64,000 nucleotides of DNA, taken from the NCBI GenBank assembly GCA_020342235.1, contig CP073216.1:868001-932000 (forward strand), in the 5' to 3' direction. This document shows positions 41,380 to 60,092 of the stretch, one piece after another. A model generated the notes under the pieces. The model saw nothing but the letters and a program-made list of their open reading frames with translations. It ran no database searches and had not been told where the DNA came from. A program made the translations under genes and the position numbers. Position 1 is the stretch's first letter, and the number at the start of each line of letters is the position of its first letter. This DNA comes from Saccharomycopsis phalli. Taxonomy: Eukaryota; Ascomycota; Saccharomycetes; Ascoideales; Saccharomycopsidaceae.

Positions 41380-43020
41380 TTAGTTGGCCTGGTACAACCC
41401 GTTGGAGTACCCCTGGTTCAAAAACGGCGTGCCGTCCTCAATCTGCCCTTGGTGCTGCCCGCTGTTGCTTGGGAACCACCGATTGTTGCCTGGAAATTGC
41501 GGTTGTTGCGGCTGTTGCGGCTGCTGTTGTTGCTGCAGTTGTTGCTGCAGATCGAGTGGCTGGCCCGCGTTTGCGGCATAATTGGTGCTGGTTAGCGGGT
41601 TTCCAGACTGAGGGTAGTACTGTTTCATTGCGCCATAATTGCCGTTTTTGGCATCCTTAACAAAACCGCCCTGCTGCTGCGAATAGTATTTGTTGACGCC
41701 AACCGGATTTGGTGGGAGCGGCAGGAGCTCAGGCTTGACATTCGCATTGATACCCTTATTGTAACTACTAGCGCCCGGCTGCGTAGGATAGTACTGCGAT
41801 GGAAATGTAGTGTTCGGCGCCGTGCCTGTAGGACTGTACTGTACGTGATTGTACTTGCCTGGGTTCTGTGCAGGGTTGTTGATCAACAGCTGGTTAAAGT
41901 ATGGCTGCTGCTGCCCAAACTGGCTATTATTGTACTGCCCTGTGTACTCGACTTGACTGAGTGGCGGCAAATTGTATGGCAGCTGGCTCGACAGCGGCGA
42001 CGTATGCGAGGGAAACGCTTGCGCGGGCTGCACCTGGCTTCCGGCTGCAGCCTGCGGCTGCTGCGGCTGTTGCTGTTGCTGTTGCTGCTGAGGCTGCGGC
42101 GGCTGGTGTTGTTGCTGCGGCTGTTGCTGATGTTGCTGTGGTTGTGTTTGCTGCGGCGCTTGCCCGCCAAAATATACCTGCGAATTAATTGGGTTATTTG
42201 GCATCATGCCGGATATGGACGCGTTTGCATTCTGCGTCTCCAAGTAGTAAAATGATTCGTCCTCAATCGGCACCTTGCCGCCGAGAGAAGAGTCCTTAAC
42301 CGCGGTCCAAAGCTCTGCAGAGAGCTGTATGTCCTTGAGCCGAGGGTCGGTGGACGGTTTCGTTAACCGGTGGTCCATGACATCGTAGGTGTTGTAGTAC
42401 GAGATCAAGTGGATGGTCTCCGTGATTGCACGCGACGCGTTTGCGCTCTCTGGCACAAAACTGCCCAAGGAATTTTGGTGGGTGATTGTCAAGGATAAAG
42501 TCTTCTTGACCAAGCCATTGTCCTTGAAGGCATATGACGCGACCAACGACCCGACCAACGACCGGTTAGGAAGGTCGGCTGCCGGCTCGGAGAAATGGGC
42601 CGATGTCGGAGTTCCAAGGGACGAGGCCGACGAAATCGACTGGTTGTTTTGTGGATGGGTGGGCGAAAAGGTGGACGCAGTGGGCGAGCTAATGGACTTG
42701 CGCTTCGAATCCTTCTTTGGCTTCTTCCGGCTCTCCTTGTCATTGGCCGCCGATCTGTCCAACTCGCGATACACCAAGAACCGGCCCAAGATCCGGGATG
42801 GCGACCACGACACGCCATCGGTCCAGCGCTTGACGCCCGACCGCTCCTCAATGAACACAAACACGTTTCCAGACTTGATGAGGGAGCTGCGCTCCCGGTC
42901 GTGCGGCCTACGAGGCACCGTGGGCAATTGCTTGTTCAACGCCCCCTGGATCACCAAGAGAGCGTCCTTGGTGGAGGAAATGTACCCCCAGTAAGTCGGA
43001 GTAATTTTTGAATTGGACAT
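41380..43020 (-). CDS. WOR1: WOPR-domain (Gti1/Pac2) master regulator, Wor1/Ryp1/Sge1 type
   Basis: A 546-residue DNA-binding regulator. WOPR part A (about 8-90) is nearly canonical: TYWGYISSTKDALLVIQ, then VPRRPHDRERSSLI, SGNVFVFIEE, GVKRWTDGVSWSPSRI and LGRFLVYREL. A Lys/Ser-rich linker (about 90-150) separates part B (about 155-270), with FKDNGLVKKTLSLTI and HLISYYNTYDVMDHRL. The C-terminal half is Gln/Asn/Pro rich with long Q runs, as in Candida Wor1 and Histoplasma Ryp1. The family controls white-opaque switching, yeast-phase growth or virulence programmes. KRWTDG keeps the conserved KRxTDG motif that contains a possible PKA site. A TATA box (TATATATA, 43103-43110) lies about 85 bp upstream of the ATG. 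Confidence 0.95.
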   Translation of the reverse strand: MSNSKITPTYWGYISSTKDALLVIQGALNKQLPTVPRRPHDRERSSLIKSGNVFVFIEERSGVKRWTDGVSWSPSRILGRFLVYRELDRSAANDKESRKKPKKDSKRKSISSPTASTFSPTHPQNNQSISSASSLGTPTSAHFSEPAADLPNRSLVGSLVASYAFKDNGLVKKTLSLTITHQNSLGSFVPESANASRAITETIHLISYYNTYDVMDHRLTKPSTDPRLKDIQLSAELWTAVKDSSLGGKVPIEDESFYYLETQNANASISGMMPNNPINSQVYFGGQAPQQTQPQQHQQQPQQQHQPPQPQQQQQQQQPQQPQAAAGSQVQPAQAFPSHTSPLSSQLPYNLPPLSQVEYTGQYNNSQFGQQQPYFNQLLINNPAQNPGKYNHVQYSPTGTAPNTTFPSQYYPTQPGASSYNKGINANVKPELLPLPPNPVGVNKYYSQQQGGFVKDAKNGNYGAMKQYYPQSGNPLTSTNYAANAGQPLDLQQQLQQQQQPQQPQQPQFPGNNRWFPSNSGQHQGQIEDGTPFLNQGYSNGLYQAN

Positions 43021-44563
43021 GGCTCTTGCCTAATACTTATTAATGTAATCACCTGATCAATTGGAAAATAAAACCCAACAAAGTTTTGACGCAGATGGAG
43101 TGTTTATATATACTGCCAAGCGCGGGATGAGAAGAATAGCAATTTATGGAAAGGGTACAAAGAAAAGTAAAATATATAAAAAGCAACTACTCGCAGCCGT
43201 GCCAGGCGATTAACATACAATGCAGCGTATATATATTGTCATGCAATAAAGTTAAGTCATTAATGTCATGCGCCGCGCGGCTTGCCGCCGCCCTGCGCAT
43301 GCGTGTCTGCATCCTAATTGAGTCGATTCTCTAGGAATTCCAGATCCTAGTCATTAAAAGTGCAGAGATTTCGATGCTATTGTTTTTGTGGGCCGCCGCT
43401 CCCCCCCCTCTCTCTACCCACCCCGTGGAAAAAATAAAAAAAAAAAAAACAATGATAACAAATTCAGTACACATGTGATGGAGACAAAGTAACCTCTTTT
43501 AATTATGGTTGCTCCCAGCAAATGTCCTTTTCGTGGAATATTCACTTTAAGATTCTGTCAAAACCTAACTTAATATTCAACTTTTGCACTTTATCCATCC
43601 TCAAAATATCACTCCCTGGAAAATATCCCAATATACCATGCTACTCAGGGCTCCCCATTTGATTTGCCCCCTCGCTTCTTGAAGCCTTTTCCTATTTGGG
43701 GCTGATGCCATTTAAGCAGTTGAGCAGCGTCCTGTTTCTTTTTTCCAGACAACAAACAGAAACCCCGGCTGCAAAACTTTAATCATTTAGCGAATACCAT
43801 AATCAAATGCAAGGAACGGAGTGAGTTTCTCCATTTCGTCCATCATTTCCTCAGACGCCCTGGTGCAATATTTCCTCGGTTGTGCGTGCCTGCCGTCAAC
43901 AGTAATCTTATTCGCCTCAATATGTGATTGCTATGTTACTAACGCAATTCACACGGCCCTAAATTTAATTTCCTCAATTGTGACTTTCTTGAACCTGCAA
44001 ACTTCACCCTCATGCATACAAACCTAAATCCTAACCGGTGTTCTCCTTATTTACCTCGCCTGCGAGGATTCACAGAATCAAAATAATACCCCATTGTGGC
44101 AATATCTATACCAGAACCCCAGTCAAGTCTGGCGCAGCAATTGCGTTACGCAATTGTACCACAATTGAATAGTTTCTGGTATTGATAGTTTTTTTTTTTT
44201 TTTTTTTTTTTGCTTTTCGTCAATTGAGGCACGCAAGTGTGCTGTGTTGTTTTGTTTTGTTTTTTTGTATCCGTGTCTCTGTTTTTGTTTTTTTATTCCT
44301 AGTACATCACTTCAGTCCGTTTTAAGTTCCAAATGCAGTCCAGCGCTCTCACATGTGCATCAATATCACTATCTCAAAACTATAACCTTGTGAAACTTAC
44401 CGTTTTCAACTTGACAAGCTCCGCTAAATCCCACCAACAGCTCTGCAGTTACCCGGTATTTCACCCCCAATTACCCTGGATCCGTCGCATCGAATTCCTT
44501 TTGAATCAAAACCTAGTGCCTCAAAGAAACTCATGCAGGGCAGCGGCTCGTAAATTTTGCCGC
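43021..44563. promoter_or_regulatory. 1.5-kb WOR1 upstream region
   Basis: A long non-coding stretch upstream of WOR1 and 3' of the PPR-like gene. It has a TATA box near the WOR1 start, an A-tract at 43438-43450 (a T-tract on the WOR1 strand), a 23-base T run at 44189-44211, and a Reb1-type TTACCCG at 44449-44455. AAACTTTAA at 43774-43782 resembles the motif I recall for Wor1-type proteins (TTAAAGTTT). Long upstream regions with self-binding are known for Candida WOR1; that this one is alike is inference. Confidence 0.5.
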
Positions 44564-47293
44564 CTAGACTTTGGCAAATATCTCATCTCCAATCTTCTTG
44601 AACATCTCAATACTCGCTTCCAAGCCAACTTCAGAACCCCGCAGCCGCTGATCTTTTTTCAACTTCGCTTGTCTCACCCTAACCCATTTGGTCGCCAACT
44701 CTTCTTCTCCAAGCACATATATCTTCTTCAACAACGACACAATCGTCCGCTTGATTGCCACCTCGTGCCGACTCAATGTCTGGCTATTAATGTATCCTAG
44801 TGCCTGGAGCCGGAGCACCAACAAAAAGCCGACGTACGGTTCCGCGGGCAGCTTCTCGATTCCAAACTTGATGAGCAGGAGAATCATCTTGCAGTCAAAC
44901 ACAAACTCTGACTCGGACACGCGTGCCGGGGCTGCTAACTGGAACAGGCCGGCCAGGGCTTCTTTCTGACTTGCGTCTGTCTGTGTCAGGGCTTCTATAC
45001 AGGCAGCCTCCTGCCCTGGACCATACCTCCGATCCTCCCTCATCTTATTCACACACCAAAACACAAGGTTCTCCAACTTCTCAAACTCCCTCACATAATT
45101 CCCGTAGCTGTAAATCGTCTTTTGCCACACATCCCGATCAATCTTCCTCGAAGGTACCCGGTCAAGCACCTCAATCACCTGGCTCATGATCTCGTCATAC
45201 GATGACATGTATCCTCGTTTAAGAAGCTCGGCCCTCGAATTAAAAAGAGTCTTAACCATCGCCGACACAGTCTGCTTGTTTGCCGCACTATTGCTAAGCA
45301 AATATCCAAACAATTTCCGCGCCTCGGGGTATTGTCGTCGGCCCAACAAGTGATACGTCAAATGGTTGCTAATTTCATGAAAACTCTCCAACTTGAAATT
45401 CTCGCTACCGTCCAAGATGGAAATAATTCCGCCCATGCTGACGTCACCAAACTTCCGAATCCCTATACACCAGTTACACACCATGGCCGAAACATACGCC
45501 TCAACATTTACATGGGTTTGTTTCGTGTACAAATGGTCAAGCCGGCCAATCAACACCCGCACCATCTCAAGAGCCTCCTCATAATGCCCATTGTCACAGC
45601 AGCTTCGAATATAGATCCCAAGAATCCGCGGCAGCAATGCCCGGGGCTCGTAATATAGGGTCTGGAGCATACTGCCAAAGTCCGCTTGTTGCATCACGTG
45701 TTTTATCAATGCATCAAATTTCGCGCGGTCACGTGAGTACCAGTGGTAGAGCTTATACTCCACCATCTTGTGGTACTTTTGGTTCTGCCTTAGGGCATTC
45801 AAGGACTGCTGCTCAGAGTATTGGTCAAATAGCATATCCAACTGCTCAAACGTCACCAGCTTTTCTCGGCTCATGTAGCAATTGTAGTACATTTCGTTCC
45901 AGAACATGCTGTTTCGCACAACAAATCCTCGAGGAATCCCACCAATCAACGCTTCAATGCCTTCACTGCCCTTTTCCAAGCTGAAGACAACCCGCGTCAA
46001 ACTGTTTACCACAACTTTGCTATACCACTTCCGCTGGTTTATCCTCCTGGTAGCACTCCGCTCATCTCCGTATATTTTTGCCATGTTCCCCGGCTGAAAA
46101 AGCTCCTGAATATTCCGCCAGCACAACTCATGTAGCTCAGTGCTTCTCCCAGCGATTTGTCGCATGTATTCCAACACAGGAACCATGGCCATGCCGTTTT
46201 CTGGAACCTTGCCACAGCTCAACAACACCAAGCTGAACTTCATGAGATATTCAGAAAGATTCTCCTTCCGCCAAATATCTGCAGACTTGCCTTTTCCGAT
46301 CCTCACCGTGTCTTTTACGAGCATGGGGCGGCTTGAAAGTATTTTTTTCACAAACTCGCGGTACATGTCCAGATGGTCATACTGTCGCACGAGCGCCATC
46401 AAGAGCTCCCAGTTATCACTGCCAAGACCGATTTCAATCAATTTTAGTACCTCGGTGACATTCGGCTTGATCCAGGGATATATGCTGTCGTGCATTTCCA
46501 TTACTGTCTTGCACTTTCCATAGATGAGTCCATTGCCAATGATACAGGTATACAAATCGCTGCATAGGTAATGTTTGCTTTGTTTTTCGTGGCACAATTT
46601 TGCAATGCCCTGGAGGAAGGTTCGATAAAATTCGGGGCTGGACAAGGACATTTTGATGCTCAGCACCCAAAACTTTTTCCTTGCATATTCGCTGGGAGTT
46701 TGTTTTGGCGAGTTTGTTTTGGTTATTTTCAGTAAATCTTTTGACAATAGGGTTGGTTTATTTGGTTCTCTTGATTTTTTTTCCCCCACTCTCTCCACTC
46801 TCTCAAGTTTCTCCATATTCTTCACTGTCTCCATATTCTTCACTTTCTCCATATTCTCCACTTTCTCCATATTCTCCACTTTCTCCATATTCTTCACTCT
46901 CTCAATTTTCTCCATTTCCTCCATTTCCTCTACCCTCTCCATTTCCTCTACCCTCTCCATTTTTTTTACTCTCTCCATTTGGTCAAACCCCAAAATGGCA
47001 GTCTTGAGAAAATCCACATCCATACTATTCATATACCCAATCCAAACCGCCTCAACACGACTCAACGTCTCGATATCCAAAACAGGAAAGCCCAATACCT
47101 CTCGCAACTTCTTGGCCCCAGCTTCCAGTGACCCTGGTACAATTTCTCTGGACGGCCGAAAAGCCGCCGATGACGATCCAAAATAGCGCGGATTACATTG
47201 TAGGCGAGTCCAAGAAACACTGACCCTACTTCTGGGCAATAAATACGACCTCACGCCTGAGCAGACCCACGGTACTGTTGCCCTGTGGAACAT
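44564..47293 (-). CDS. Mitochondrial PPR-like protein, unassigned
   Basis: A 909-residue protein with an Arg-rich, acid-poor N-terminus (about 1-50) typical of a mitochondrial presequence. From about residue 200 to the end it is a helical repeat protein without sharp consensus, with paired helices spaced like the diverged pentatricopeptide repeats of yeast mitochondrial expression factors (Rmd9, Aep and Pet types). I cannot place it in one of these families. A low-complexity array of MEKVEN/MERVEE units (about 105-170) is inserted between the presequence and the repeats, encoded by repeated TCCAT-containing units at 46800-46980. The first ATG is used. Confidence 0.6.
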   Translation of the reverse strand: MFHRATVPWVCSGVRSYLLPRSRVSVSWTRLQCNPRYFGSSSAAFRPSREIVPGSLEAGAKKLREVLGFPVLDIETLSRVEAVWIGYMNSMDVDFLKTAILGFDQMERVKKMERVEEMERVEEMEEMEKIERVKNMEKVENMEKVENMEKVKNMETVKNMEKLERVERVGEKKSREPNKPTLLSKDLLKITKTNSPKQTPSEYARKKFWVLSIKMSLSSPEFYRTFLQGIAKLCHEKQSKHYLCSDLYTCIIGNGLIYGKCKTVMEMHDSIYPWIKPNVTEVLKLIEIGLGSDNWELLMALVRQYDHLDMYREFVKKILSSRPMLVKDTVRIGKGKSADIWRKENLSEYLMKFSLVLLSCGKVPENGMAMVPVLEYMRQIAGRSTELHELCWRNIQELFQPGNMAKIYGDERSATRRINQRKWYSKVVVNSLTRVVFSLEKGSEGIEALIGGIPRGFVVRNSMFWNEMYYNCYMSREKLVTFEQLDMLFDQYSEQQSLNALRQNQKYHKMVEYKLYHWYSRDRAKFDALIKHVMQQADFGSMLQTLYYEPRALLPRILGIYIRSCCDNGHYEEALEMVRVLIGRLDHLYTKQTHVNVEAYVSAMVCNWCIGIRKFGDVSMGGIISILDGSENFKLESFHEISNHLTYHLLGRRQYPEARKLFGYLLSNSAANKQTVSAMVKTLFNSRAELLKRGYMSSYDEIMSQVIEVLDRVPSRKIDRDVWQKTIYSYGNYVREFEKLENLVFWCVNKMREDRRYGPGQEAACIEALTQTDASQKEALAGLFQLAAPARVSESEFVFDCKMILLLIKFGIEKLPAEPYVGFLLVLRLQALGYINSQTLSRHEVAIKRTIVSLLKKIYVLGEEELATKWVRVRQAKLKKDQRLRGSEVGLEASIEMFKKIGDEIFAKV

Positions 47294-47487
47294 GATTATA
47301 AAACCGATCCATCACGTGTACATATGTACACGTGATTCCAGTCACGTATACACTGCACGTGACTGTTCCGTGCCCCGGTGACATTTTGGTAATAGGAGAG
47401 AGTTTTAGGCTGTGGGCGCTTTTTATATCTGAGCATTTTTCACACGAACACGATTTGTGTTCCCGGATACGAGAGAGACACAGCGAC
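47294..47487. promoter_or_regulatory. Divergent promoter with CACGTG cluster and 26-bp palindrome
   Basis: The spacer between the PPR-like gene and SCD5 carries three CACGTG hexamers (47313, 47329, 47356) and one CACGTA (47343) in 49 bp. The first two form the arms of a perfect 26-bp palindrome (47311-47336) centred on CATATG. CACGTG is bound by Cbf1 and Pho4-type bHLH proteins. Confidence 0.7.
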
Positions 47488-49776
47488 ATGAACGGGACGA
47501 ACTTTGATTGGACAGCATTTTCAGGGGCAACCGACTCCAGTGTGACTGCGAGTTTCTCCAGTCTTAGTTTGGACGCAACCAAGGATGGATCTGGGCAGCT
47601 TTCGTTGACGATGAACCAGCTTTCGGACGAGGAGAGCAAGACGTATCTCCGGTGGTACAACGATTTGGTTATCCGGAAGCACAGCAAGCTCATTAGCGTC
47701 GGAGATGTGTTTGAGTTTCTCAAGAACTTCCACTTGAGCGACCCGTTGAAAAACTACTTGAAGTCCCTCTTCAGCACGGGCGGCTTGAACATCGGGCAGT
47801 TCTTTGCTTTGCTCCGCCTCATTTCCCACTACATTTACAACTTGACCGAATTGCATCGCGACACCATGCCGTCACGCGACTTGGTTAGCCAGGTATGCCA
47901 GATCCCCAAGCCCCGGTCGATTCTCGCGACAAAACGACTTGAAGAAGCAGCAGAGTCTGGACTGGTGCCGTTGGATGAGAGCAAGATCGATCTCGACAGC
48001 TTTGCCAAGTTCATCATGACAGGCGAACGGCCTGGCAATAGCAAAAGCACAGTGTCGCCTATCAACAAGGGCCGGAAAAAGAAGAAGCCGAAGCGGGTGC
48101 AGTTCAGTGACCAGTTGGTGACGGTTCAGATGGACGAACCGACAAATGGAGGCTCGGACGCATCTGCAGTGGAGCCGAAACTGAGCCGCAACAGCCTTGA
48201 TTTGTCATTGCCCATGGGCCAGTTGCTCCAGAAGTTGAAGAGCAACCCTCTGCAGAAGCACCAGATTGCTGTCCGCGGTCTTTCAGAAGCAGACATGCAG
48301 GACGAGCGTGAGTTGTTGGGCGAGAACTTTAAGCATTTCCAGAATGTGAACATTGAAAGTGCATTGGTCCATGGAAAGGCAGCGGCCATTCCTCAGGAGC
48401 TTGTGCCGACAAACACCGGAGGGACTATGGACGGGCAAAACGGACATGTGCCGCACTTGGGACTACAAAATGGGAGTTTTTCTGGGGTGCAGCAGAATTT
48501 AACCGGGGGCTTTTCTGGATCTCAGCAGAATTTAGCTGGAAACTCAACTGGGCTACAGCAGAATTTAACTGGAAACTCAACTGGGCTACAGCAGAATCTA
48601 ACTGGAAACTCAACTGGGCTACAGCAGAATGTAACTGGAAACTCAACTGGGCTACAGCAGAATCTAACTGGTGGAAACTTGTCTGGGATACAACAGAATT
48701 TAACCGGTGGAAACTTGTCTGGGATACAACAGAATTTAACCGGTGGAAACTTGTCTGGGATACAACAGAATTTAACCGGTGGAAACCTATCTGGTCCGCA
48801 AAACACATCCGCAGGAAACATCTCGATAAACATCTCCGGATCCCAAAACGGCCAGCTACAACCAAACTTGACTGGAAGCGCAAACCAGTTCCTTCGCAAC
48901 CAGTACTCAAGCTACAGCATCAACCAGCCACCAGCCAACGGCTCAAGCTCCACCGTAAACAACATCAACTCAAACCAGTCGGCATCCAACACGTTTCCAT
49001 CCTCCTTTGCATCCAACACAAATATCAGTACATCTAATAATTTAAACCAGGGACTCAGCCCAAACAATACAAACGGAAACACATCTCTCTTTGGCCTCTC
49101 CAACAGCTCTTCCCTCATTCAAAACTCCCTCGGTTTGTCGTCCCCTGGCTCACTTTCTCCAAGCTTCCCAAGCCTTTCTCCACAACCTTCGGGCCCCGAT
49201 TATTACCCTCAAGACAGAACGTCTTCCTTGAGCCCCTTGCCTTCGCGCGGTGACCAGTTTATCAATTCATTGACGGGCAGTGTTACTAACCTTTCGGTTC
49301 CGCCTCCGCCACCTCCTCGAGCGCGTAGTAGCACTTTGACGGGGATTCCACAGAGGCCTAATTCGGATTTCTCGCATTCGTACCAGAATCAAGGTCTGGG
49401 CCAGTATCAGACCCTGGACCAGAACCAGTTTCAGAGCCAGTTTCAGAACCAGTTTCAGGGCCAGTTTCAGAACCAAAGCCAAGGCCAATTTCAGAGCCAA
49501 GGCCAGGGCCAATTTCAGAGCCAAAATCAGAACCAATTTCAGAACCAGTTTCAGAACCAGAACCAGTTTCAGAACCAGAACCAGTTTCAAACCCAATTCC
49601 AGAACCAGAACCAGCCCCAAACCCAATTCCAGCCCCAGTTCCAAGGTCAGAACCAGTTTCAGTACCAGAATTCAGGAGCAATTTATGGGAACCAAAATGT
49701 GTCGCAATATGGTGGGAATCCGGGCGTAGCGTATCCTTCAACTAATCAGAATCTTGAATGGTATGAGACGGAGTAG
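47488..49776 (+). CDS. SCD5: Scd5-like endocytic adaptor / PP1-targeting protein
   Basis: A 762-residue protein. Residues about 35-110 form an EH-like helical domain (DEESKTYLRWYNDLV, NFHLSDPLKNYL, LNIGQFFALLRLI). A basic stretch with KKPKRVQFSD near 190 contains the RVxF motif for protein phosphatase 1. The central repeats (about 345-430) are four GNSTGLQQNLT units then GGNLSGIQQNLT units. Each holds LxxNxTG or IxxNxTG, the consensus of Prk1/Ark1 kinases that regulate actin patches. The last 130 residues are Gln/Phe/Asn rich. This combination matches Scd5, which couples PP1 to clathrin-mediated endocytosis. I chose the ATG at 47488; the upstream in-frame GTG is unlikely. Confidence 0.75.
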   Translation: MNGTNFDWTAFSGATDSSVTASFSSLSLDATKDGSGQLSLTMNQLSDEESKTYLRWYNDLVIRKHSKLISVGDVFEFLKNFHLSDPLKNYLKSLFSTGGLNIGQFFALLRLISHYIYNLTELHRDTMPSRDLVSQVCQIPKPRSILATKRLEEAAESGLVPLDESKIDLDSFAKFIMTGERPGNSKSTVSPINKGRKKKKPKRVQFSDQLVTVQMDEPTNGGSDASAVEPKLSRNSLDLSLPMGQLLQKLKSNPLQKHQIAVRGLSEADMQDERELLGENFKHFQNVNIESALVHGKAAAIPQELVPTNTGGTMDGQNGHVPHLGLQNGSFSGVQQNLTGGFSGSQQNLAGNSTGLQQNLTGNSTGLQQNLTGNSTGLQQNVTGNSTGLQQNLTGGNLSGIQQNLTGGNLSGIQQNLTGGNLSGIQQNLTGGNLSGPQNTSAGNISINISGSQNGQLQPNLTGSANQFLRNQYSSYSINQPPANGSSSTVNNINSNQSASNTFPSSFASNTNISTSNNLNQGLSPNNTNGNTSLFGLSNSSSLIQNSLGLSSPGSLSPSFPSLSPQPSGPDYYPQDRTSSLSPLPSRGDQFINSLTGSVTNLSVPPPPPPRARSSTLTGIPQRPNSDFSHSYQNQGLGQYQTLDQNQFQSQFQNQFQGQFQNQSQGQFQSQGQGQFQSQNQNQFQNQFQNQNQFQNQNQFQTQFQNQNQPQTQFQPQFQGQNQFQYQNSGAIYGNQNVSQYGGNPGVAYPSTNQNLEWYETE

Positions 49777-51940
49777 TTGGGTAATGCCAAGTGGATCTAG
49801 AGGATTGGATCTTGGTAGTTTTTTGTGGGTAATTATGGATCGCAGTGCTTACCAGATATAGTGGTGCTGGTGCTGGTTGGCATTGGACGAGGAAAACTAG
49901 GCTGATTTACTTTTAAAGTTTGATACCTTATGAGTAACTAAGAGACAGAATGTAGCTAGAGAGTGATAGAATTGTAATAGAAGTTGACTACAAATGAAAT
50001 TTGTAAATACAAGTGAATGCTAGGTAGGGGATTTGGCGTAGAATTTTGGCAAAGAGAAGATAGGATGGAATAGGGATTAGGGTTGGGAAGGAAGAAGTGA
50101 AGTGGATGAAGTGAAGTGAAAGAAGTAAAGTGAAAGAAGTAAAGTGAAAGAAGTAAAGTGAAAGAAGTAAAGTATATGAGAACTGGTAAAGAAGTGGAAG
50201 AGAACTGGTAAAGAAGTAAAATAGAACTGGTAAAGTAAAAGAGAATAGATAAAGCATAAGAGAACAAGTAAAGGACAGTAAACAATAAAGAAACAAGCAG
50301 AAGTAGAATAGTTGCAAGCTGAATTAAACAAATCAAAGCAACCAATTATCAACAACTGAAAGCAAGTAAAGCTATTGAAAATTAGACCAACACAGTCAAA
50401 TATGTGAATTGGCACCGAGACAAATTCCAAAACCACAATAATCACTATATCGAACAACTGAAATTGACTCTGCCATTATACTATTATTCAATTGAGTTGG
50501 TCAACGTTGGAGATGGACTGCAACACCGCGCTTCACTTGAGAAGTTGCAATTAAGCTGGAGAAACGAATTTTCAACTTCGATATTCGAGGAATTTGCCAT
50601 GATGAGTGGAAATGTCGGGATTCAGATAAAATTTTAGAGACGAGTCTAAACTTGAGTTTATGACGTTATGGTTCTAAAACACGACAATTCTAGATTCTTG
50701 CTGCTAAATTCACCAGACTAAATTCCTCGGTCTAAATTTGCGAGCCTAAATCTGCCAGGTTAAATACACCCTTGGGGGTGATTGCTCTACACTTGAGGAT
50801 TGACATTGGAGGTGTGTGTGGTTGAATATCCCAAATTGATTATACAAAGGCAACTTTCCCAGCAAGATTTACCTATATTCTTCACTACGACTCAAACCTA
50901 GAAAATTAAGCTACAGATATTTTATAGACATTGTTCCAGCAGATGATTCCAGACAATCTCAGACAATCTCAGACAAACAACGTTAGTGCGTAGCAAAGGA
51001 GTATCCTGATGATCATTACCAAGGTAGGGTAACAGTGTTACAGGGTAGGGAAATTCGACATGACACAACAGGGTAGTACGTTTGGAGCGTTGATGGTTTG
51101 ATGCCCCCGGCAGGGTAGTTTATGTGTCTTCACGTGCACGGCAAACTGGCGATGGTGCCGAGAGTTGGTGGGGGTGTTTACGGCGGCATGGTGAATCCAT
51201 TGCGGATTACTTGTTTAAGGATTTATGGTATGCGGCCCGTCTGCAGATGGCGTTTCTGAGAAGGACCGCCGATCTTAACCCAAGATTATGTACCATGGTT
51301 GTTACTTTTTGTTTTCTTTTTTGGGGGGGGAGGTCGGAGGTGTTTTTATTGGCCGATGTAACCCACGGGTCGCCCGTATTTGTGTGCCGCTTTTTGTGCA
51401 GGTGGTGGAATCCACAAATTACAACACCCACCCGTGTTTGTGGTTGCTTATTTGTTGCTGCTGTTTTATGTTTTATGTTTTTTTGTCTTATGCTTTTTGT
51501 TTTATGTTTTATGTTTTTTGTTTTATGTTTTTTTTTTGTTTTTTTTTTTGTCTATGGTTTTGTGTCTATGATCGCGTTTTTGCGTGCCTGGCTTCATGGC
51601 TGGAGCACCCGGCGCACCGCAAGGGTATCGGAGTTAAATTTCGGATATAGTTCGCAGCGACAGCACGTCTGCCAATTGATTGTGCCAATTGCCTCGGCCA
51701 ATTGGCTGTGACAACTGACTGTGTTTATGTAAATTGCACCTTGGAGCCTCATGCTCAGTGGACAATTGACGGTTGCCCCGTTTTTTTTTGTGCTTGCATC
51801 GGCACGTCGGCGTCGGGGCTGCAGGTTGATTCGTGCCAGAATATTGGCTTGCGCATCCAGGTTAAGGTTTCCTTTCCTGAATAAATACAGCTAGTCTGAA
51901 TGACATCTTGTCTGGGCACCAACACATACTTGAAAATACA
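49777..51940. other. 2.2-kb region upstream of the first velvet gene
   Basis: Contains four 14-bp GAAGTAAAGTGAAA units (50113-50173) followed by looser AGAACTGGTAAAG repeats to 50240. TTAAAGTTT lies at 49912-49920 (Wor1-like motif). CACGTG is at 51131-51136. A T-rich stretch built from TTTTATG units spans 51465-51560. The open frames across the T-rich stretch are low complexity and not credible genes. A very short frame overlaps the velvet start codon (51900-51962). Confidence 0.6.
50113..50173. repeat. 14-bp minisatellite, about 4 copies
   Basis: Unit GAAGTAAAGTGAAA head to tail, followed by diverged related sequence. Confidence 0.88.
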
Positions 51941-51962
51941 ATGCGGAGAGTACTCCAACTAG
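51900..51962 (+). promoter_or_regulatory. Upstream ORF overlapping the velvet-1 start
   Basis: A 20-codon frame starting at the ATG 41 bp before the velvet ATG and ending 22 bp inside the gene, in another frame. The upstream ATG has T at -3, a weak context, whereas the velvet ATG has A at -3. Leaky scanning would be needed for velvet translation if the transcript includes this ATG. Confidence 0.5.
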
Positions 51963-52786
51963 TGCCTTTGAACGGCATCCACGAGACGAACGACATCAGC
52001 TACAGCTTCAGTCTCATCCAGCAACCCAAGTTTGCGCGAGAGTCGACGAACCTGAAGCGGCTTCTTCACCCGTACCCGGTTCTCACGTTGAAGGTGTACC
52101 GGCGGGAGAAGAATGGCGGATTTACGGACATTACGAGTCACAGCTTGTCGCAGTTCTTCCTCAAGGCGTCGATAGTCGGAACCAACGACCAGATATTGGT
52201 GGGCAACACTGTGATCAGCGGCACGTTTTACGCGCCGCCCTCGGACGACGCTGAAATAACCCGCCAGGATCCGGGGGTGATTGCCTTTGTGTTCAACGAG
52301 TTGGGCATTGTCAAAAAGGGCAACTTCCGGCTCCGGTTCGAGCTCTACAAGTTTGAGTTCTTCCACCACTTGTTGCGGCGGGTCCCCAAGATATGTAAGG
52401 TGCATCTGCTTGTCTCCGACGAGTTCAGAATATACGGCTCGCGCCAGTTCTACAAGAAACTGAATCAGCTCCGCTTCGCCAAGGAGCTTGAGATCGAACG
52501 CCGCAAAGTCGCGTGCAATCGCACGTTGACGTACTTGAAGAATATCAAGGTGCTCAAGGAGCTGGACGACAGGAAACTGGGCAAGAAGAACCCCCGGCTC
52601 GAGGTCAAGCAGATGATTTCGGGGTCGCAGTTCCTTGTCTTTGACTCGAAGAAGCAGACCGACACCCCCGAAGCCTCCACCAACGAGCCTGGAGACCCCC
52701 CTCAGTACACGGTGGCTACTTCCAACAAGCGGAAACTTGCCGTCTATGACGATCGCATGAGTATCAAGAAGCTACTATTGGCCTAG
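51941..52786 (+). CDS. Velvet-domain regulator 1
   Basis: A 281-residue protein with a velvet domain at about 20-178. Family landmarks in order: YSFSLIQQPKFARES (21-35), HPYPVLTLKV, FFLKASI, a VISGTFYAP strand, then FVFNELGIVKKGNFRLRFELYKFE and VSDEFRIYGSRQFYKKL. Velvet factors are nuclear dimers with an NF-kB-like fold that bind DNA and control development and secondary metabolism. A shared helix (about 183-215, ending YLKNIKVLKEL) follows the domain. The tail is basic and ends with a KKLLLA stretch. I chose the ATG at 51941 because all three paralogues then begin Met-Arg and have the QQP position at residues 27-29. It is nearest to velvet 3 and is not clearly VeA, VelB or VosA. Confidence 0.92.
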   Translation: MRRVLQLVPLNGIHETNDISYSFSLIQQPKFARESTNLKRLLHPYPVLTLKVYRREKNGGFTDITSHSLSQFFLKASIVGTNDQILVGNTVISGTFYAPPSDDAEITRQDPGVIAFVFNELGIVKKGNFRLRFELYKFEFFHHLLRRVPKICKVHLLVSDEFRIYGSRQFYKKLNQLRFAKELEIERRKVACNRTLTYLKNIKVLKELDDRKLGKKNPRLEVKQMISGSQFLVFDSKKQTDTPEASTNEPGDPPQYTVATSNKRKLAVYDDRMSIKKLLLA

Positions 52787-53899
52787 TGGGTGGCTTGGTG
52801 GAGGTTTGACTATTTTCGTGGGTGGGCTGAATACAAATGTTACATTGCTAGTTCTATAATGTAGTGGTACTTCCGTCATGGTTACTCCGGTTGGTACTCG
52901 CCCGTAGATTCAAACCCGTCATACGGTACCATGGCTGTTTCTTGCGACTCAATTGTTTTGCTACCATTGATGCTTTCCAAACTATTCGTTTATTTTACGC
53001 TTTGTTTCCGCATTTCATCTGCCTATTGTGAAAACGGACCGCGAGTTTCCTCAATTCCCCAAATTGGTCCGTCTCGGCTCAGTATAGTATTTACCCGGCT
53101 GTGATCGTGCCGAGACATGCATGCTACCCAAGATTCATCACATCCAGTGTCTGAGCCTCGACTTGGTGTCATACCGCAAATCATTGCTTCTGTCATCGCT
53201 TTAATTAGCCGTAATTCACCTGGTATTTCGTATTGTCGGCACAATATTGAATATACAGGTGGGCTTACCCTTGGCTTGTGGCTTTTACCATTTTCCCATT
53301 CCACTCTATGCTGGATTTCCCACTCTATTATTTTGCATTTTCCCACTCTATTATCTTTTGGGTTTGCTTCTATCTTTTTCCTCCTCACTTTTATTTCCAA
53401 TTGTATTCTCAATCCATTATCCATTTGGCTTCACTTTTTCAAGTTGTATTCTCAGCCCATTATCAATTTGGCCCCACTTTTTTCAGTTGTATTCTCAACC
53501 CAAGTCAAACGACGAATAAATTTTTTTCAATATTTGGCAATTTCCTCAACTGTCAACTTTAAACTATAAATTCACTTGGGAAGCGGTTCAAAAGTGAGGC
53601 GTACTTTGGAAATTACCACGATATTCACCAAGCTAAAATCACAAACATGACGTAACAACTGGATTTATACATGACTAGACTACAGGGATCTGGGTCGTAT
53701 GTAGTAATCAAACGTAAAATTGAGGGAGGCTATTTGCCAGGATAACTAATCGTTCAGTCCCAAAGAAAAATGTATGGTACTATGGACACATGGCAAAGTA
53801 ATGACTCTTTTATTTTTAAGCTGATTGATAATCAGTCATGACGATACCAGACACTGGCTTTACTTTTTAAAAATTACGTTTAAATCTAATTCCAAAAAT

Positions 53900-54085
53900 A
53901 TACCTGCAAAAAAGAACTAATCAAAAAGCTTAGCAAAATACCTGCCAAAAAACTTTACAAAATGCCTGCCAAAAACGTATCACAACACCTGCCAAAAATA
54001 TACTGTAAACACTTGCCAAAAATATACTGTAAATACCGGCCAAAAATATACAGTTAAACCTTGCCAAAAATACGCTGTAAAAACT
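53900..54085. repeat. 23-bp imperfect repeats in the velvet-2 upstream region
   Basis: About seven units, each with CCTGCCAAAAATATACTGTA or a variant, spaced 21-25 bp. They end about 460 bp before the velvet-2 start. Confidence 0.85.
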
Positions 54086-54213
54086 CATGGAAAATTTGGC
54101 TTCAAGAACCTCCACACAATTTACGCCAACACCCACACCCACTTCCTACAACACATCAAAATCCACACCGTACCAAGACAACCAGCTCCAGTAATCCGGA
54201 CCATGGGAAATTA

Positions 54214-54260
54214 CCGCCGGAAAACCACCGGAAAACCACCGGAAAACCACCGGAAAACCA
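54214..54260. repeat. 11-bp repeat, 4 copies
   Basis: Unit CCACCGGAAAA; the first copy has CCG in place of CCA. Confidence 0.93.
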
Positions 54261-54501
54261 CTCTTCCTCAAACACCAACATTGATTCTAGACCTGGTCAC
54301 GTGATACATGACTGCTTAGCCCCCATCCAAAATCGCGGATCCAATGTGCGCATGATTTTAGCGGGAACAAGAAATGGGATAGAGCCAAACCCATGGACCC
54401 CATGTCAGCATGAATGGGTAGAATAAGTCCAAACGGCACATATGTCATTGTGTGACTCTATGCATCGAGACATATATATAAATAAATATATATAATAATA
54501 C

Positions 54502-54558
54502 ATGGACCCTGGAGAAAGCACATACGTGATATACAAACTACATGCGAAACACAGTTGA
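54502..54558 (+). promoter_or_regulatory. Upstream ORF overlapping the velvet-2 start
   Basis: An 18-codon frame starting 40 bp before the velvet-2 ATG and ending 14 bp inside it, in another frame. The upstream ATG has T at -3. It lies only just downstream of the TATA region, so some transcripts may begin after it. Confidence 0.45.
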
Positions 54559-55537
54559 GTTCGCCCCGATAACTACAATCCACAACGCAATCAACATCAA
54601 GTATCGGTTGCAGATTGTCCTGCTGCCAAGATTTGGCCGGGAATTCACCAAAGCAAAACGATTGATCAACCCTCACGCAGTGATCGCCTTGAAAGTGTAC
54701 TCGGGCTCAAAAGACATCACCAACCATGTCTTGTGCCAGTTTCACATGAAAGTATCGCTCCAAGGAGGCAACATGCGCAACCTCGTGGGTCTTCTGTTTG
54801 TCAACGGCTCGCTCCATCCAGTTAATGGCGGAGTGTTTATCTTTACGTTTCCGGACTTGGGCATCGTGTCCCGGGGTGTGTACACCCTCCAGTTTGAGTT
54901 GTTCAAATACGAGGGGTACGCGTTCATGGGGGAAAGAGGCACTCCGCCGTTGCTTACGAAACTTGGGGAGATCCAAAGTGCTCCGATCCATATCTTTGGG
55001 ATCCGCGAGTTTTACAAGTCGGAAGTTCAGCGGGGATTCCAACAGGACGCTGCGTCGGAGCTTGCGGAATTGAAGCGGTGCCGAGAAAAATACAACATTT
55101 ACAAATATTTGAAATCCATTGGAATTATCAAGGATACTTCCAAAACCGATTCTCCCTTGAAACGCAAGCACTCCTTCCTAGACCACCCGCAAAAACGTCC
55201 CGCTACTGAGTGCCACATGACACATCACGTGACCGATCCAGACTCATGTCACATGACGTATACTGTGTCGCCGTTGAGCAGTGGGTTTGACACAGCATCG
55301 GACTTTCACAGCAGCTCGCTGTCGATTTTTGACGACTTACATCACAACTTTAACGTCTCGCAGCCCAACTTTAACAATTCCATATTTAGCGATACTGCTT
55401 TTAACGACGCCTTCAGCACCGCCACTTTCAGCGATCCTGGTCTTGGCGAAGGAATGTTGGGCGAATTGAGTTTCCCTGAACTTGACGGCAGCGCGTCTTC
55501 CAGAATGAAGGACGCCTTTTCCTACAGACTTTGCTGA
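54542..55537 (+). CDS. Velvet-domain regulator 2 (diverged)
   Basis: A 331-residue protein. The velvet domain spans about 20-165: YRLQIVLLPRFGREF, NPHAVIALKVY, CQFHMKVSL, FTFPDLGIVSRGVYTLQFEL and PIHIFGIREFYKSEV. The FPDL-x-x-x-x-G-x-Y core is better kept than in its neighbours, but the near-universal QQP is replaced by LLP at residues 27-29 and the following ARES by GREF. The shared post-domain helix ends YLKSIGIIKD. The remaining 140 residues contain a basic KRKHSF segment and an acidic Ser/Phe/Asp-rich tail (about 240-320), which looks like an activation domain. It begins MRN at the ATG at 54542. The loss of QQP may alter DNA contact or dimer choice. Confidence 0.85.
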   Translation: MRNTVEFAPITTIHNAINIKYRLQIVLLPRFGREFTKAKRLINPHAVIALKVYSGSKDITNHVLCQFHMKVSLQGGNMRNLVGLLFVNGSLHPVNGGVFIFTFPDLGIVSRGVYTLQFELFKYEGYAFMGERGTPPLLTKLGEIQSAPIHIFGIREFYKSEVQRGFQQDAASELAELKRCREKYNIYKYLKSIGIIKDTSKTDSPLKRKHSFLDHPQKRPATECHMTHHVTDPDSCHMTYTVSPLSSGFDTASDFHSSSLSIFDDLHHNFNVSQPNFNNSIFSDTAFNDAFSTATFSDPGLGEGMLGELSFPELDGSASSRMKDAFSYRLC

Positions 55538-55975
55538 CATGTGGTGTCTTAGTAGATTTTATATACTTGTCATTAGCATTACATACAATTTATAAACGCA
55601 ATACAGTACAGGATAAGTAAACCTTGCTCGGGGTGGCATGCCATTTGCGTATTCTCGTAATCAAGAAAATTCTAGTTGACACAATCGGCCCAATCAAGAT
55701 CGGCCTGACCCGCAGTACAGATCACGTGAACAACTCGGAACACGCCTGGGATTCGACGCTCTCTAGACTCTGTCATGTACGAGAAGAATTCTAGGCCGTT
55801 GGCCCAAGCAATGCATGCACGACAAAATGATCCACGCCATTACGTCATGGCCACAAAAAAATCCCCAAGCTACAATTGCGCTACAAAACAAGACACATTA
55901 CAATTGTATATTTGCTACTCTGGCCCCAATATATATAGTATAGGAAGGTATAGTACAAAAGCAGGAACGCATGGT
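55538..55975. other. Spacer between velvet 2 and the zinc-ribbon microprotein gene
   Basis: The 3' flanks of two convergent genes. CACGTG at 55723-55728. A plus-strand 85-codon frame from 55775 overlaps the microprotein gene in antisense and has no features, so I reject it. Confidence 0.5.
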
Positions 55976-56086
55976 TCAGTACCATACGCATTCCTCGCAG
56001 CGACTCTGCTTGCAGTTCTCACACTTTGTTAGATGCTCGTCGTTCACGGTCCGACATTGGCAACACCGCCAATAATAATCTGCCAT
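55976..56086 (-). CDS. 36-aa zinc-ribbon microprotein
   Basis: From the ATG at 56086 the frame encodes 36 residues with seven cysteines. The layout is W-R-C-C-Q-C at 6-11, C22-x2-C25 and C30-x2-C33, ending VWY. This W-x-C-C-x-C ... C-x2-C ... C-x2-C arrangement resembles small zinc-ribbon domains (RanBP2-like) at the ends of many uncharacterised filamentous-fungal proteins. The frame stays open upstream to 56185 without another ATG, so the real protein might have an extra N-terminal exon. A TATA-like AATATAAATAAA at 56215-56226 on the same strand, behind a T-tract, suits the ATG used. Function unknown. Its place between velvet genes invites a regulatory role, but that is a guess. Confidence 0.55.
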   Translation of the reverse strand: MADYYWRCCQCRTVNDEHLTKCENCKQSRCEECVWY

Positions 56087-56189
56087 GGGAACTTGGAGAG
56101 TGTCTTGATTTGACTTGCTAGATCCTGTTTCTAAAGTCGACGTGCAAAGTTGTGGCTGCCCAAAGGAATGTGTGTTTTGCAGCGTTTAA

Positions 56190-56420
56190 TTTTTTCCTAG
56201 GGGTGATTCAGGGTTTTATTTATATTCAGTGCGTCTTAAATGTAGCGAAATGAGACTTTTTTTTCCTTGACCAAACGAGAAAGAAAAAAAATGATGCAAG
56301 AAAAAAAAAAAACACAAAAAAAAACACAAAAAAAAAATACAACAAATTACAACAAAAAAACATAAATATATAAAAAAAAAAAAACTAAACAAAGTAAACA
56401 AAAAAAACAACTAAACGTCT
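56190..56420 (-). promoter_or_regulatory. T-tract and TATA promoter of the microprotein gene
   Basis: On the minus strand this is a long T-rich stretch (many runs of 7-12 T), followed by TATAAATAAA near 56217-56226, about 135 bp before the microprotein ATG. This is a typical yeast promoter layout and supports transcription of the minus strand. Confidence 0.45.
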
Positions 56421-58245
56421 ATTGTCAACAGCATACCAAAATTTAAAATCAACATTGGCCTGCAGCGGGTGAATTAGATCGCCAGCCGGACCAATTCTTT
56501 CCCGCTAAAGGCTCCGTTTACTAATACCCGCCATCATGTCTCATTGTAAAACGTGTCACGTGAAGCGTATCCCAGATTATGGAACTAGATGCACGTGATA
56601 TGTAACATGGTCAACAATTCACAAGGCACAACTTGAGCAACATGAATTTCGAAAAAAAAATTGTGGAATTCACATTATATTACCCCAAGCTCTGATATAT
56701 ACGCAATCAGCCTGTACGCCGACTCTTTATTACTTTTTTGTTATTGTAAACTTGTAAAATTCGCAGTGGTCCTGTAGTGTTTACCTTCACAGGTCGTTCC
56801 TCTTGAACGTTGATGAGACATTTGTGTGGAATTCGTCAAAACTTTTTCCTATCATCGACTCATCAAAATGTGTCATTTGTATGGATTTGGTTAGCGTTTT
56901 GCCTTTATCGGTTGCAGACCTTGGCAAGCTATAATCCAGACCAAGTTCTAAATAATCAGTCAGAGTTGAGCAGCGTTTATGTGAAACAAAACTTACTCAA
57001 ATGGGAAGTTATAACTCAATTGATCTCTTTCCACAATCACCCGATTTCCATCAATCATTTCTACACTTTGAGTGTACAAGTGGGTTGATGGAATAACGAA
57101 ATTTGTCGCATCAATTGTAATTCCAAATTGGAAAAAACTTGGAGAATGGAAATGTGGAAAATGCCAGGTTGAAATAGAATGGATGTCCTTCTACAATGCT
57201 ATGGTGGTGTTGGTCTCTGAACTCAATCAGCTGTACAAGTACCATTTGGTAATACATGTACCAAATTAGAACTTTTACGGCCACATAAGCGGGAATAGGC
57301 CTTTTAAATTATCAATACAAAGCATCAATAATCAATACAGAACATCAATCATCAATCGAACCATTTTTCAGTGAGCTTTTCCACCCGGTTGGCATAGCCC
57401 AGAACTTTCTCCAACAGAGAGGGGCCTTTCACCAATATAGAGGGGGCCATTATGTTCTCCAAGATAAACTAATATATTCTAACCATTAACAAAGAAGCCA
57501 ATGTAACATGAAATACTAAATAAAATAATTATTGTTGAAATTGCGGTCATGTACCATCCGCCCGGATCAAATGCATTGGGCTATTATAGAGATGCACTAC
57601 GACCAGAACAATTACAGTTTAAACCTTAAGGATAATGTTTCGATAGAAGCCTGCCGAGGTAGTAAATAAAAGTATGAACTGCAATTTTCGGAATTCAAAC
57701 GGCAGTTACACTTGGAAGGAACCACTGATTTGAATCGAGCGCTTGTATACCAACAGATTGCTGAGGCATGAGCAACGCCACTGGAAATATTACGACATTA
57801 TATTTGGGATTTATTTGCTATCTTGTCCGAGTTGATTGCAATTATAATATCAAAGTGGCCTTGATATTGTACTGTAGAAGAGTGCATTATTTAACCAAAA
57901 TGGTGCGTTATGGAACGTTCTGTTGCAGTGTGGCTCGCAATTTACAATAGAGGAAGTATTTTTGAATAAGCCATTGGCTTTGGAAGAACGAATTTCTTTT
58001 TTTGGTAATTTTCTGGGAATTGCTGTTTTACCGGTGTGATGCGATCCTCGATGCGTTTGTTTGAATCCAAGGTAGGAATTTAAAAAGTGGGGCAGATTTA
58101 GTTTGACAGAAGTTGGGAATTTTTGGGCAAGTTTGGATATGAATATATGACGAGGTTATTTATGATGGTTGGTATATAAGGATTTCATGAGCTGATGTGA
58201 AATGAGAAGTATTATGAAAAAGTAGTTATGTGCTAATGCCTCATA

Positions 58246-58382
58246 GACAAATCTATAGACAAATCTATAGACAAACCATCAACAAATCTATATACAAACC
58301 ATAGACAAAAACACAGACCAATGTTCATAGACCAATCCATATACTAATACTCATGGGCCAATCTATAGACAAACATAGACCA
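58246..58382. repeat. Imperfect 12-16-bp repeats
   Basis: Repeated (T)CTATAGACAAA and related CATAGACCAAT units, about nine in all, 500 bp upstream of velvet 3. Confidence 0.8.
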
Positions 58383-58801
58383 CTACCATGCCATTGTAAA
58401 TCGCTAGCAAATGCAAAGTAGTCACACTGCACTGTTCTTTGTCAAAGCACCTGAATCACCAACCTGGGCCATTTCCAAGCATCTAGACTAGATACGTAAT
58501 TGGCAATAAAGTTTGTAGCCACATTGGGAATATTCGTTTCATGTAATACAACAGGCTAATATACGATTTTACGGTGAGCCATTGACTAGTTGTAAGCGAT
58601 ACAACGGCATTGCAATTGGAAGTGCGACCCGCATGGGAATGTGCTACAAAGAGGGGAATGTGCCAGGGCCAACACAATAATTGAACTAACGACATGTCCA
58701 AGAACATAAGCAAATGGACAAGCTGAGGGAGGGCCGATTAGCGAATACCAGCCTGATTAGCGAATACTGGCTCAATTACGAGCCCGCACAGATGCGACGT
58801 A

Positions 58802-58834
58802 CACGTGAGAATTCCGACTGCGCATACACACGTG
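58802..58834. promoter_or_regulatory. Paired CACGTG sites before velvet 3
   Basis: Two CACGTG hexamers, starts 27 bp apart (58802 and 58829), 44-76 bp before the velvet-3 ATG. Candidate bHLH sites, close enough to the start to influence promoter use. Confidence 0.5.
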
Positions 58835-58857
58835 ACAAGTGACCAAAGTCTGGTTCC

Positions 58858-58899
58858 ATGTTTGGGCATCTGGTAGTATGCGGTCTTCCCTTGAATTAA
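58858..58899 (+). promoter_or_regulatory. Upstream ORF overlapping the velvet-3 start
   Basis: A 13-codon frame starting 20 bp before the velvet-3 ATG and ending 22 bp inside it, in another frame. The upstream ATG has T at -3 and the velvet ATG has A at -3, as for velvet 1. Confidence 0.5.
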
Positions 58900-60092
58900 T
58901 ACCAATTGAACGTGTGGACACGGTTTCTGGCACGTCGTACGGGCTCCGGTTTGTGCAGCAGCCAAAATATGCTCGGGAGAGCACAGTGCTCAAGTCGTCG
59001 GGACCGGTTCTGGGCGCGAGCATCCACAAGAGGTTGCTCCATCCGTTTCCGATTCTCACGCTCAAGGTGTATTCGCGGCAAGGCGACATTACTGCACACA
59101 ATTTGAGTCTCTTTTTTCTCCGGGTGACGATGCCCGGGGAAACCGACGAAAGTCCAGTGGTGGTGGGCACCCGGACGATTTCCGGCACGGTGTATAATCT
59201 TGCTCCTAGTGGTGAGGTGGTGGTGGTGTTTATGTTTGGGGACCTTGGGTTTTTAAAGAAGGGAACGTACCGGATGACGTTTGAGTTGTACAAGTACGAG
59301 CCGTTCCGACGCGAAAACGTGCACGTGCCGGAGTTGGTGAGGCTTGCTCTGGTGGTTCTGGACGAGATCCGGGTGTATGGGCCACGAGAGTATTATAAGA
59401 GGAGTGTGCAGGAGCGGATCCAGAAGGATATGGAGGAGGAGCAGAGGCGTCGCGACGGAGACCGGGGGTGTCGGATGGTGATACTGTATTTGCGGAGTAT
59501 TAATACGATCAAGGATTATGAGCGGAGTGAAAAGGGGAGGAGTGAAAAGGGTGGTGAGAAGGGGAGGAGTGAAAAGGGTGGTGAGAAGGGGAGGAATGAA
59601 AAGGGTGGTGAGAAGATGAGAGAGGAAAAATGGAGAGAGGAAAAATGGAGAGAGGAAAAATGGAGAGAGGAAAAATGGAGAGAGGAAAAATGGAGAGAGG
59701 AAAAATGGAGAGAGGAAAATAAAAACGAAAATAAAAACGAAACGAAAAACGAAACGAAAAACAAGGAAAAACCAATTCACAAACAAATCAACGAAAAACG
59801 CACAAGGCATCAACACCAGGAACGTGACTCGGGGGAAAAAAAGGCCAGGCACGACTTGCCTGCACACCACCCTGCGCTGATCTTGACCAATCTTGCCAAT
59901 AAATCCGTGGGGAGTGTTCAGTTGCCGTCGATTCGCGACGTCCAGCTCGGGAACGACGTCCAGTTACCGTCGATTCGCGACGTACAATTGGGAAGCGACG
60001 TCCGGCTTCCGCCGCTTGTGGGGGACGTGCGTATAGGGCAGGACGATAAAGGGGCGAAACGGGCGACAGGAGGGGGAAAAGTCAGCTGCTGA
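58878..60092 (+). CDS. Velvet-domain regulator 3 with repeat-expanded tail
   Basis: A 404-residue protein. The velvet domain (about 20-180) has YGLRFVQQPKYARES, HPFPILTLKVY, LFFLRVTM, TISGTVYNLAP, FGDLGFLKKGTYRMTFELYKYE and LDEIRVYGPREYYKRS. The post-domain helix shared by all three ends YLRSINTIKDY. The tail then has SEKGGEKGR units, six to seven WREEK pentads (59617-59725), an Asn/Lys/Glu run and a duplicated VQLPSIRDVQLG block (about 350-375), and ends basic. Its N-terminus aligns with velvet 1 residue for residue except for an 11-residue insertion after ARES. I chose the ATG at 58878 for the conserved Met-Arg start; an in-frame GTG upstream is unlikely. Confidence 0.92.
   Translation: MRSSLELIPIERVDTVSGTSYGLRFVQQPKYARESTVLKSSGPVLGASIHKRLLHPFPILTLKVYSRQGDITAHNLSLFFLRVTMPGETDESPVVVGTRTISGTVYNLAPSGEVVVVFMFGDLGFLKKGTYRMTFELYKYEPFRRENVHVPELVRLALVVLDEIRVYGPREYYKRSVQERIQKDMEEEQRRRDGDRGCRMVILYLRSINTIKDYERSEKGRSEKGGEKGRSEKGGEKGRNEKGGEKMREEKWREEKWREEKWREEKWREEKWREEKWREENKNENKNETKNETKNKEKPIHKQINEKRTRHQHQERDSGEKKARHDLPAHHPALILTNLANKSVGSVQLPSIRDVQLGNDVQLPSIRDVQLGSDVRLPPLVGDVRIGQDDKGAKRATGGGKVSC

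Follow-up and report, generated by a model that had tools for sequence, protein, structure and literature searches.

A single-copy Wor1-type regulator gene beside an array of divergent velvet genes in Saccharomycopsis phalli

We analysed a 64,000-nucleotide stretch of the genome of the budding yeast Saccharomycopsis phalli (the window; C5:868001–932000 of 14,148,124 bases in 8 contigs), in which the gene of a WOPR transcription factor lies close to three genes of velvet-domain proteins, named here W1, W2, and W3. The WOPR gene is the only one of its kind in the genome, and W1–W3 belong to a divergent clade of seven velvet genes. The combined results probably reflect an ordinary Wor1-type regulator beside an array, one of two, that arose in a lineage-specific expansion of velvet genes. 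The velvets would be working proteins, and the history of the array would account for their linkage to the WOPR gene. Papers are cited below by accession, from excerpts of their text.

The WOPR and velvet genes

The principal genes were the following.

41380..43020, minus strand: gene of a WOPR (Wor1/Gti1/Pac2-type) transcription factor, 546 amino acids (PF09729; match to 4qtj)
51941..52786, plus strand: velvet gene W1, 281 amino acids with CTG read as Ser (PF11754, E = 4.1e-13; Foldseek; trees)
54542..55537, plus strand: velvet gene W2, 331 amino acids (PF11754, E = 2.2e-6; trees)
58878..60092, plus strand: velvet gene W3, 404 amino acids (PF11754, E = 1.5e-8; trees)

Families were called on the window genes using Pfam profiles with curated cut-offs, the standard code, and the longest frames. 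The ATG starts of W1–W3 were assigned by eye at 51941, 54542, and 58878. For the WOPR gene, the profile search returned a match over the whole of PF09729 (profile positions 1–168, E = 4.3e-59), located at residues 9–210 (about 42391–42996). The nearest solved relative was Candida albicans Wor1 (4qtj, E = 2.9e-49). According to the whole-profile match and the alignment to Wor1, both the WOPRa and WOPRb halves are present with the KRWTDG core, while the C-terminal half of the protein is Q-rich. The canonical WOPR gene of the original prediction was thus confirmed, and a profile search of the whole genome yielded this single match.

The three velvet-domain genes claimed for the window were also recovered, since the PF11754 cut-off was passed by all of them, with modest scores of 28–50 bits. 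The AlphaFold model of W1, computed from the three window velvets, was weak (mean predicted local distance difference test score of 49.5). Searching this model against the PDB with Foldseek gave only seven matches with E ≤ 0.001, all of them velvet domains of VeA, VosA, or VelB (ranks 1–7, E = 4.8e-8 to 1.3e-5). With these velvet domains filling all the top matches of a low-confidence model, W1 is predicted to adopt the Rel-like beta-sandwich fold of the velvet family.

The reading frames of W1–W3 are intact over 281–404 codons, with no intron in motif 1, and the MR start was retained in each. Motif 3 has the form [YF]xxRx[FY]Y in 7/7 members of the divergent clade; the corresponding sequence in VelB and VeA is FSAKKFPG or YSAKKFPG. 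Motif 1 is variable: QQPxxAR was kept in W1 and W3, and W2 has SSPxxGR (CTG read as Ser). The C-terminus of W3 is charged and of low complexity, with 15-nucleotide repeats. In VosA, DNA is bound by K37, K39, R41, and K42 of loop A, and binding is lost when K37 and K39 are both mutated (K37A/K39A; PMC3876986). Our alignment showed W1–W3 to be basic at the R41/K42 positions, as a KR pair. W2 has one extra lysine, and W3 has an insert and a rearranged K37/K39 part of the loop.

It is most likely that the velvets function as DNA-binding factors with a Rel fold. We infer that they would be expressed and would act as heterodimers, either among themselves or with the unlinked VelB orthologue described below; we favour the role of one half of a heterodimer. 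The targets of such dimers may be genes of development or starvation. The WOPR protein would work separately through Wor1-type sites, perhaps including one in its own promoter.

The velvet family across the genome

We counted at least 13 velvet genes in the genome, distributed over 10 loci of contigs C1, C5, C6, and C8. This is a lower bound, since the searches were run exon by exon and only the best candidates were scored. PF11754 yielded 10 velvet genes, and W3 as the query added W3 itself and the pair C6:617k/618k. The W3 search gave 20 matches, comprising nine velvet-gene rows and 11 rows that were dropped (query position 219 onward, the low-complexity tail). Queries with the C8:42k and C5:67k domains found no further velvet genes in the genome. 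The PF11754 cut-off was passed by 11 of the 13 genes. C6:617k matched no Pfam family and is a homologue of W3 (E = 3.3e-37); C6:618k, also a W3 homologue (E = 5.8e-20), scored 17.8 bits against a cut-off of 25.

Two trees were calculated from the 13 domains and three reference sequences in fragments (A. nidulans VelB, A. nidulans VosA, and a VeA). The first had 167 columns; the second had 170, with one exon join corrected. Both recovered a long-branched, divergent clade of W1, W2, W3, C6:617k, C6:618k, C5:67k, and C8:42k (support of 100/99 and 99/99). C5:374k grouped with VelB (99/97 in both trees; 51% domain identity), and this orthologue lies about 535 kb away from the WOPR–velvet locus on the same contig. 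Within the divergent clade, W2 paired with C6:617k (91/87 and 86/86), a member of the second array, C6:617k/618k. The pairing of W1 with W3 was weak (65/76, 167-column tree). Of 200 bootstrap trees, 1% and 3% united W1–W3, and no strong branch contradicted their single origin; strong support was found on 3 of the 13 inner branches, and C5:67k has a long branch.

With the three fragmentary references, W1–W3 grouped with neither VosA nor VelB and formed a separate clade. Ryp2 and Ryp3 of Histoplasma are orthologous to VosA and VelB, respectively (PMC3720256). Because W1–W3 fall outside both groups, they are not orthologues of Ryp2 or Ryp3. The proposed analogy with the Ryp1–Ryp2/Ryp3 system is therefore not supported as orthology: a phylogeny with VeA, VelB, and VosA places W1–W3 elsewhere, and the VelB orthologue is distant.

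The second array has no WOPR gene nearby, as the genome-wide search returned one WOPR match. We considered that an array had been copied as a block. This was rejected, as the single flank scanned at the C6 array, an ERCC4-domain gene, was absent from the family matches of the window, and no large segmental copy was seen in about 10 kb of sequence at that array. Ten neighbouring genes, scanned at seven of the nine other velvet loci, have housekeeping or transport functions (repair, mannosyltransferase, Golgi-stabilisation, transporter, RhoGAP, channel, adaptin, mitochondrial import, and APC). C5:67k (region C5:62300–72000) is flanked on both sides by putative mannosyltransferase genes (PF11051). 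C5:388k and C6:1244k carry an intron in motif 1 at an identical place, as judged by eye, and the joined frames are open. C5:388k is about 13 kb from the VelB orthologue C5:374k, and the two make a loose velvet cluster.

The divergence of the window genes raises the question of whether W1–W3 are fast-evolving leftovers of duplication in a relaxed, decaying array, with little regulatory role. Their long branches and the 35–48% domain identity among them are in line with this, as are the shortened loop A of W1, the low-complexity tail of W3, and the modest Pfam scores. We nevertheless regard decay as doubtful, given the intact frames, the MR start and loop A KR pair kept in all three, and the motif 3 form shared by the entire clade.

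The original prediction described a budding-yeast lineage that had kept and amplified velvet factors, three of them near a WOPR gene, and the velvet count together with the 8.9 kb between W1 and the WOPR gene agrees with this. It also held velvets to be unknown from model Saccharomycotina. That part needs qualifying: Saccharomycopsis fibuligera has 12 velvet-domain genes (PMC5106798), and Saccharomycotina velvet clades have been published (PMC10845976). Velvets are absent from most budding yeasts (PMC10845976). This absence would suit horizontal gain from a filamentous fungus in place of vertical retention. We consider such a gain very unlikely, as several velvet types are dispersed over C1, C5, C6, and C8 among native genes, a separate VelB orthologue is present, and S. 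fibuligera also has its 12 velvets. With seven of its velvets in a divergent clade, this genome offers a setting in which to study the diversification of Rel-like factors in a yeast whose relatives have mostly lost them.

Linkage and candidate regulatory sites

The edge-to-edge gap between the WOPR gene and W1 is 8.9 kb and contains two genes without a recognised family. They are listed with two motif matches.

44564..47293, minus strand: gene of a 909-amino acid protein with sub-threshold family matches only (Pfam), an unremarkable neighbour
47485..49776, plus strand: gene of a repetitive, Q/N-rich protein that matches no family above the cut-off, an unremarkable neighbour; the first ATG is at 47485 and the listed frame starts at GTG 47332
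43774..43782, minus strand: exact Wor1-type 9-mer TTAAAGTTT in the WOPR promoter, about 0.75 kb upstream of the start, a possible autoregulatory site
49913..49921, plus strand: second exact TTAAAGTTT (motif match), about 2 kb upstream of W1 and 0.14 kb past the end of the preceding gene

Neither intervening gene reached a family cut-off, in agreement with the two ordinary genes predicted between WOPR and the velvets. The gap between W2 and W3 (55538–58877) showed no evident hidden gene, its longest wholly internal ATG frame being 91 amino acids. Upstream of W2, positions 53937–54103 hold six imperfect TGCCAAAAATATACTGTA-like copies with 23–24-nucleotide spacing, possibly a regulatory array.

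We estimated how often such linkage would arise by chance. The probability that at least one of 10 randomly placed velvet loci lies near the sole WOPR gene is 1.5% within 8.9 kb and 3.0% within 20 kb; a gene-order version gave about 1.2%, assuming 5000 genes. These figures hold for one pre-chosen pair, and the WOPR–velvet pair was chosen after being seen, in one genome. One of the ten velvet loci is near the WOPR gene, and the other nine have none. The linkage is not yet distinguishable from coincidence. The adjacency of WOPR and velvet genes most likely marks the site where the array happened to arise; it would not be a selected switch locus.

Several observations weigh against this explanation. 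Regarding the working role of the velvets, the equivalents of K37 and K39, the most important residues in VosA binding, are missing from W1, whose loop A is shortened, and C6:618k has no second loop A basic residue; some members may therefore not bind DNA. Regarding the linkage, a chance of 1–1.5% is low, and real selection may have acted on it. Both exact TTAAAGTTT sites in the window are intergenic, one located in the WOPR promoter and the other upstream of W1. Long gaps precede the velvet genes (2164, 1755, and 3340 bases, where the median of 20 gaps is 1022), and their sum gave P = 0.006 on our own gene list. Upstream gaps of this length resemble those of elaborately regulated genes. We take these observations as hints and not as proof.

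The linkage, the sites, and the gaps would all fit a linked developmental switch, in which the WOPR protein uses Wor1-type sites to activate its own gene and the velvet genes next to it, and velvet dimers feed back on WOPR. The 19-kb block, perhaps with the wall-protein gene that follows it, would then work as a single switch of cell state that is heritable or triggered by starvation. Support by analogy comes from Histoplasma, where WOPR and velvet factors work in one interdependent network (PMC3720256). We find a switch of this kind improbable here. The TTAAAGTTT sites (letters taken from PMC3364952) are found at 43774 and 49913 and nowhere else in the window, but their number is at chance level, with 2 observed against 1.26 expected, and at least 2 in 36 of 100 shuffles. 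The site at 49913 lies 2 kb away from W1 and adjoins the end of the preceding gene. Moreover, no orthologue of Ryp2 or Ryp3 is among the linked velvets, and 9/10 velvet loci are unlinked to WOPR. The strong claim, that the locus is a linked switch sharing homology with the Ryp circuit, was consequently not supported, in view of the different orthologues, the chance-level site count, and a linkage not yet distinguishable from coincidence.

A WOPR–velvet control that is dispersed elsewhere could also have been rebuilt here as one physical unit, in which a self-activating WOPR gene controls an array of newly evolved velvet paralogues. We rate this as a slim prospect. If true, the rebuilt cis-linked unit would switch cell state, perhaps in connection with hyphal growth, sporulation, or predation in yeasts of Saccharomycopsis type. 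The genome also offers a setting in which to ask whether WOPR and velvet control remain coupled. Should the linkage prove conserved, it could be asked in a small genome whether WOPR–velvet circuits are older than the split between yeasts and filamentous ascomycetes.

Genetic code, neighbouring features, and known systems

The window uses a nonstandard code. In five conserved genes, CTG faced Leu at 1/11 aligned sites, compared with 118/186 for the other five Leu codons, and a standard-code reading of the window was ruled out on this basis. The alignments were partial for SEC7 and RAD5, and KIN28 had no CTG. None of the 11 CTG sites faced Ser; the alignment test therefore says "not Leu" alone, and the Ser reading rests on tRNA genes. 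Three of 14 tRNA stretches with the exact long-arm D-loop signature (L071, L076, and L080) are Ser-type with the anticodon CAG and an intron, as seen by eye. Rfam accepted all three as tRNAs, ARAGORN none of the 14, and the discriminator is G in the one Ser-type CAG tRNA where it is visible. CUG is thus predicted to be read as Ser, and the window proteins are to be translated with table 12. CUG = Ser is common to Ascoideales and Serinales (PMC13148404), so that it is not diagnostic of Ascoideales. A genome search for ATP sulfurylase (PF01747) gave no match, with this as the single MET gene examined and no yeast control. The result agrees with the expectation for Saccharomycopsis, as sulfate assimilation was lost in S. 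schoenii and S. fibuligera (PMC6508603, PMC5106798). The guanine-plus-cytosine (GC) content is 43.4% over 152,009 bases of the genome.

After W3, the window contains one further gene.

61504..64000, plus strand: gene of a Ser/Thr-rich repetitive protein, running past the window end (table 12, open end)

Its product has a signal-peptide-like start, is probably secreted, and by eye resembles a mucin or adhesin of the cell wall. The part at 62.0–63.4 kb is a mosaic of repeats with lengths of 27–161 nucleotides. Elsewhere in the window, 18681–21161 (plus strand) encodes a protein with many KESTQTVS-like repeat copies, as seen by eye; its Pfam match to the T4 gp5 trimerisation domain (E of about 2e-15) is probably a low-complexity artefact. 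The 2.6-kb gap at 32061–34694 has a longest wholly internal ATG frame of 64 amino acids and no Rfam match. The gene at 7490–9559 (plus strand) encodes a copper amine oxidase whose nearest PDB entry is a peroxisomal primary amine oxidase, 3sx1, which we take to be a methylotrophic-yeast enzyme. No RNA genes were found in the window by ARAGORN (bacterial mode) or by Rfam at the gathering score.

A budding yeast with amplified velvets, S. fibuligera, has already been described. Within the literature searched, the proximity to a WOPR gene and the arrangement of the divergent velvet clade in two arrays are new, and we found no description of WOPR–velvet linkage in a yeast among the titles and abstract starts of open-licence papers. 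Velvets were stated to be absent from hemiascomycetes (PMC3720256) and, still in 2026, from budding yeasts (PMC13006574).

Among the known systems, S. fibuligera is similar as a budding yeast with about a dozen velvets, a member of the CUG-Ser order Ascoideales (PMC13148404), and a species with loss of sulfate assimilation, which the lack of an ATP sulfurylase match may parallel here. The 13 velvets, the CTG sites, and the Ser-type CAG tRNA genes likewise make the present genome resemble that lineage. Its genome has about 18 Mb in 7 chromosomes, compared with 14.15 Mb in 8 contigs here, and the excerpt of PMC5106798 tells of no WOPR neighbour, with zero occurrences of "wor1". S. schoenii, at 33.9% GC and 6 nuclear chromosomes (PMC13148404), differs from the present genome in GC content and in its 8 contigs. 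The likeness to C. albicans Wor1 covers both halves of the WOPR domain. Candida has no velvet factors (PMC3720256), unlike the genome analysed here, and a further difference is that the gap upstream of our WOPR gene is just 1.5 kb. In relation to the published velvet groupings, C5:374k corresponds to VelB and the rest are velvet-domain proteins. The Histoplasma circuit of Ryp1 (WOPR), Ryp2 (VosA), and Ryp3 (VelB) employs the same two transcription-factor families, but the window velvets are orthologues of neither VosA nor VelB, and the excerpt of PMC3720256 describes no physical linkage in Histoplasma.

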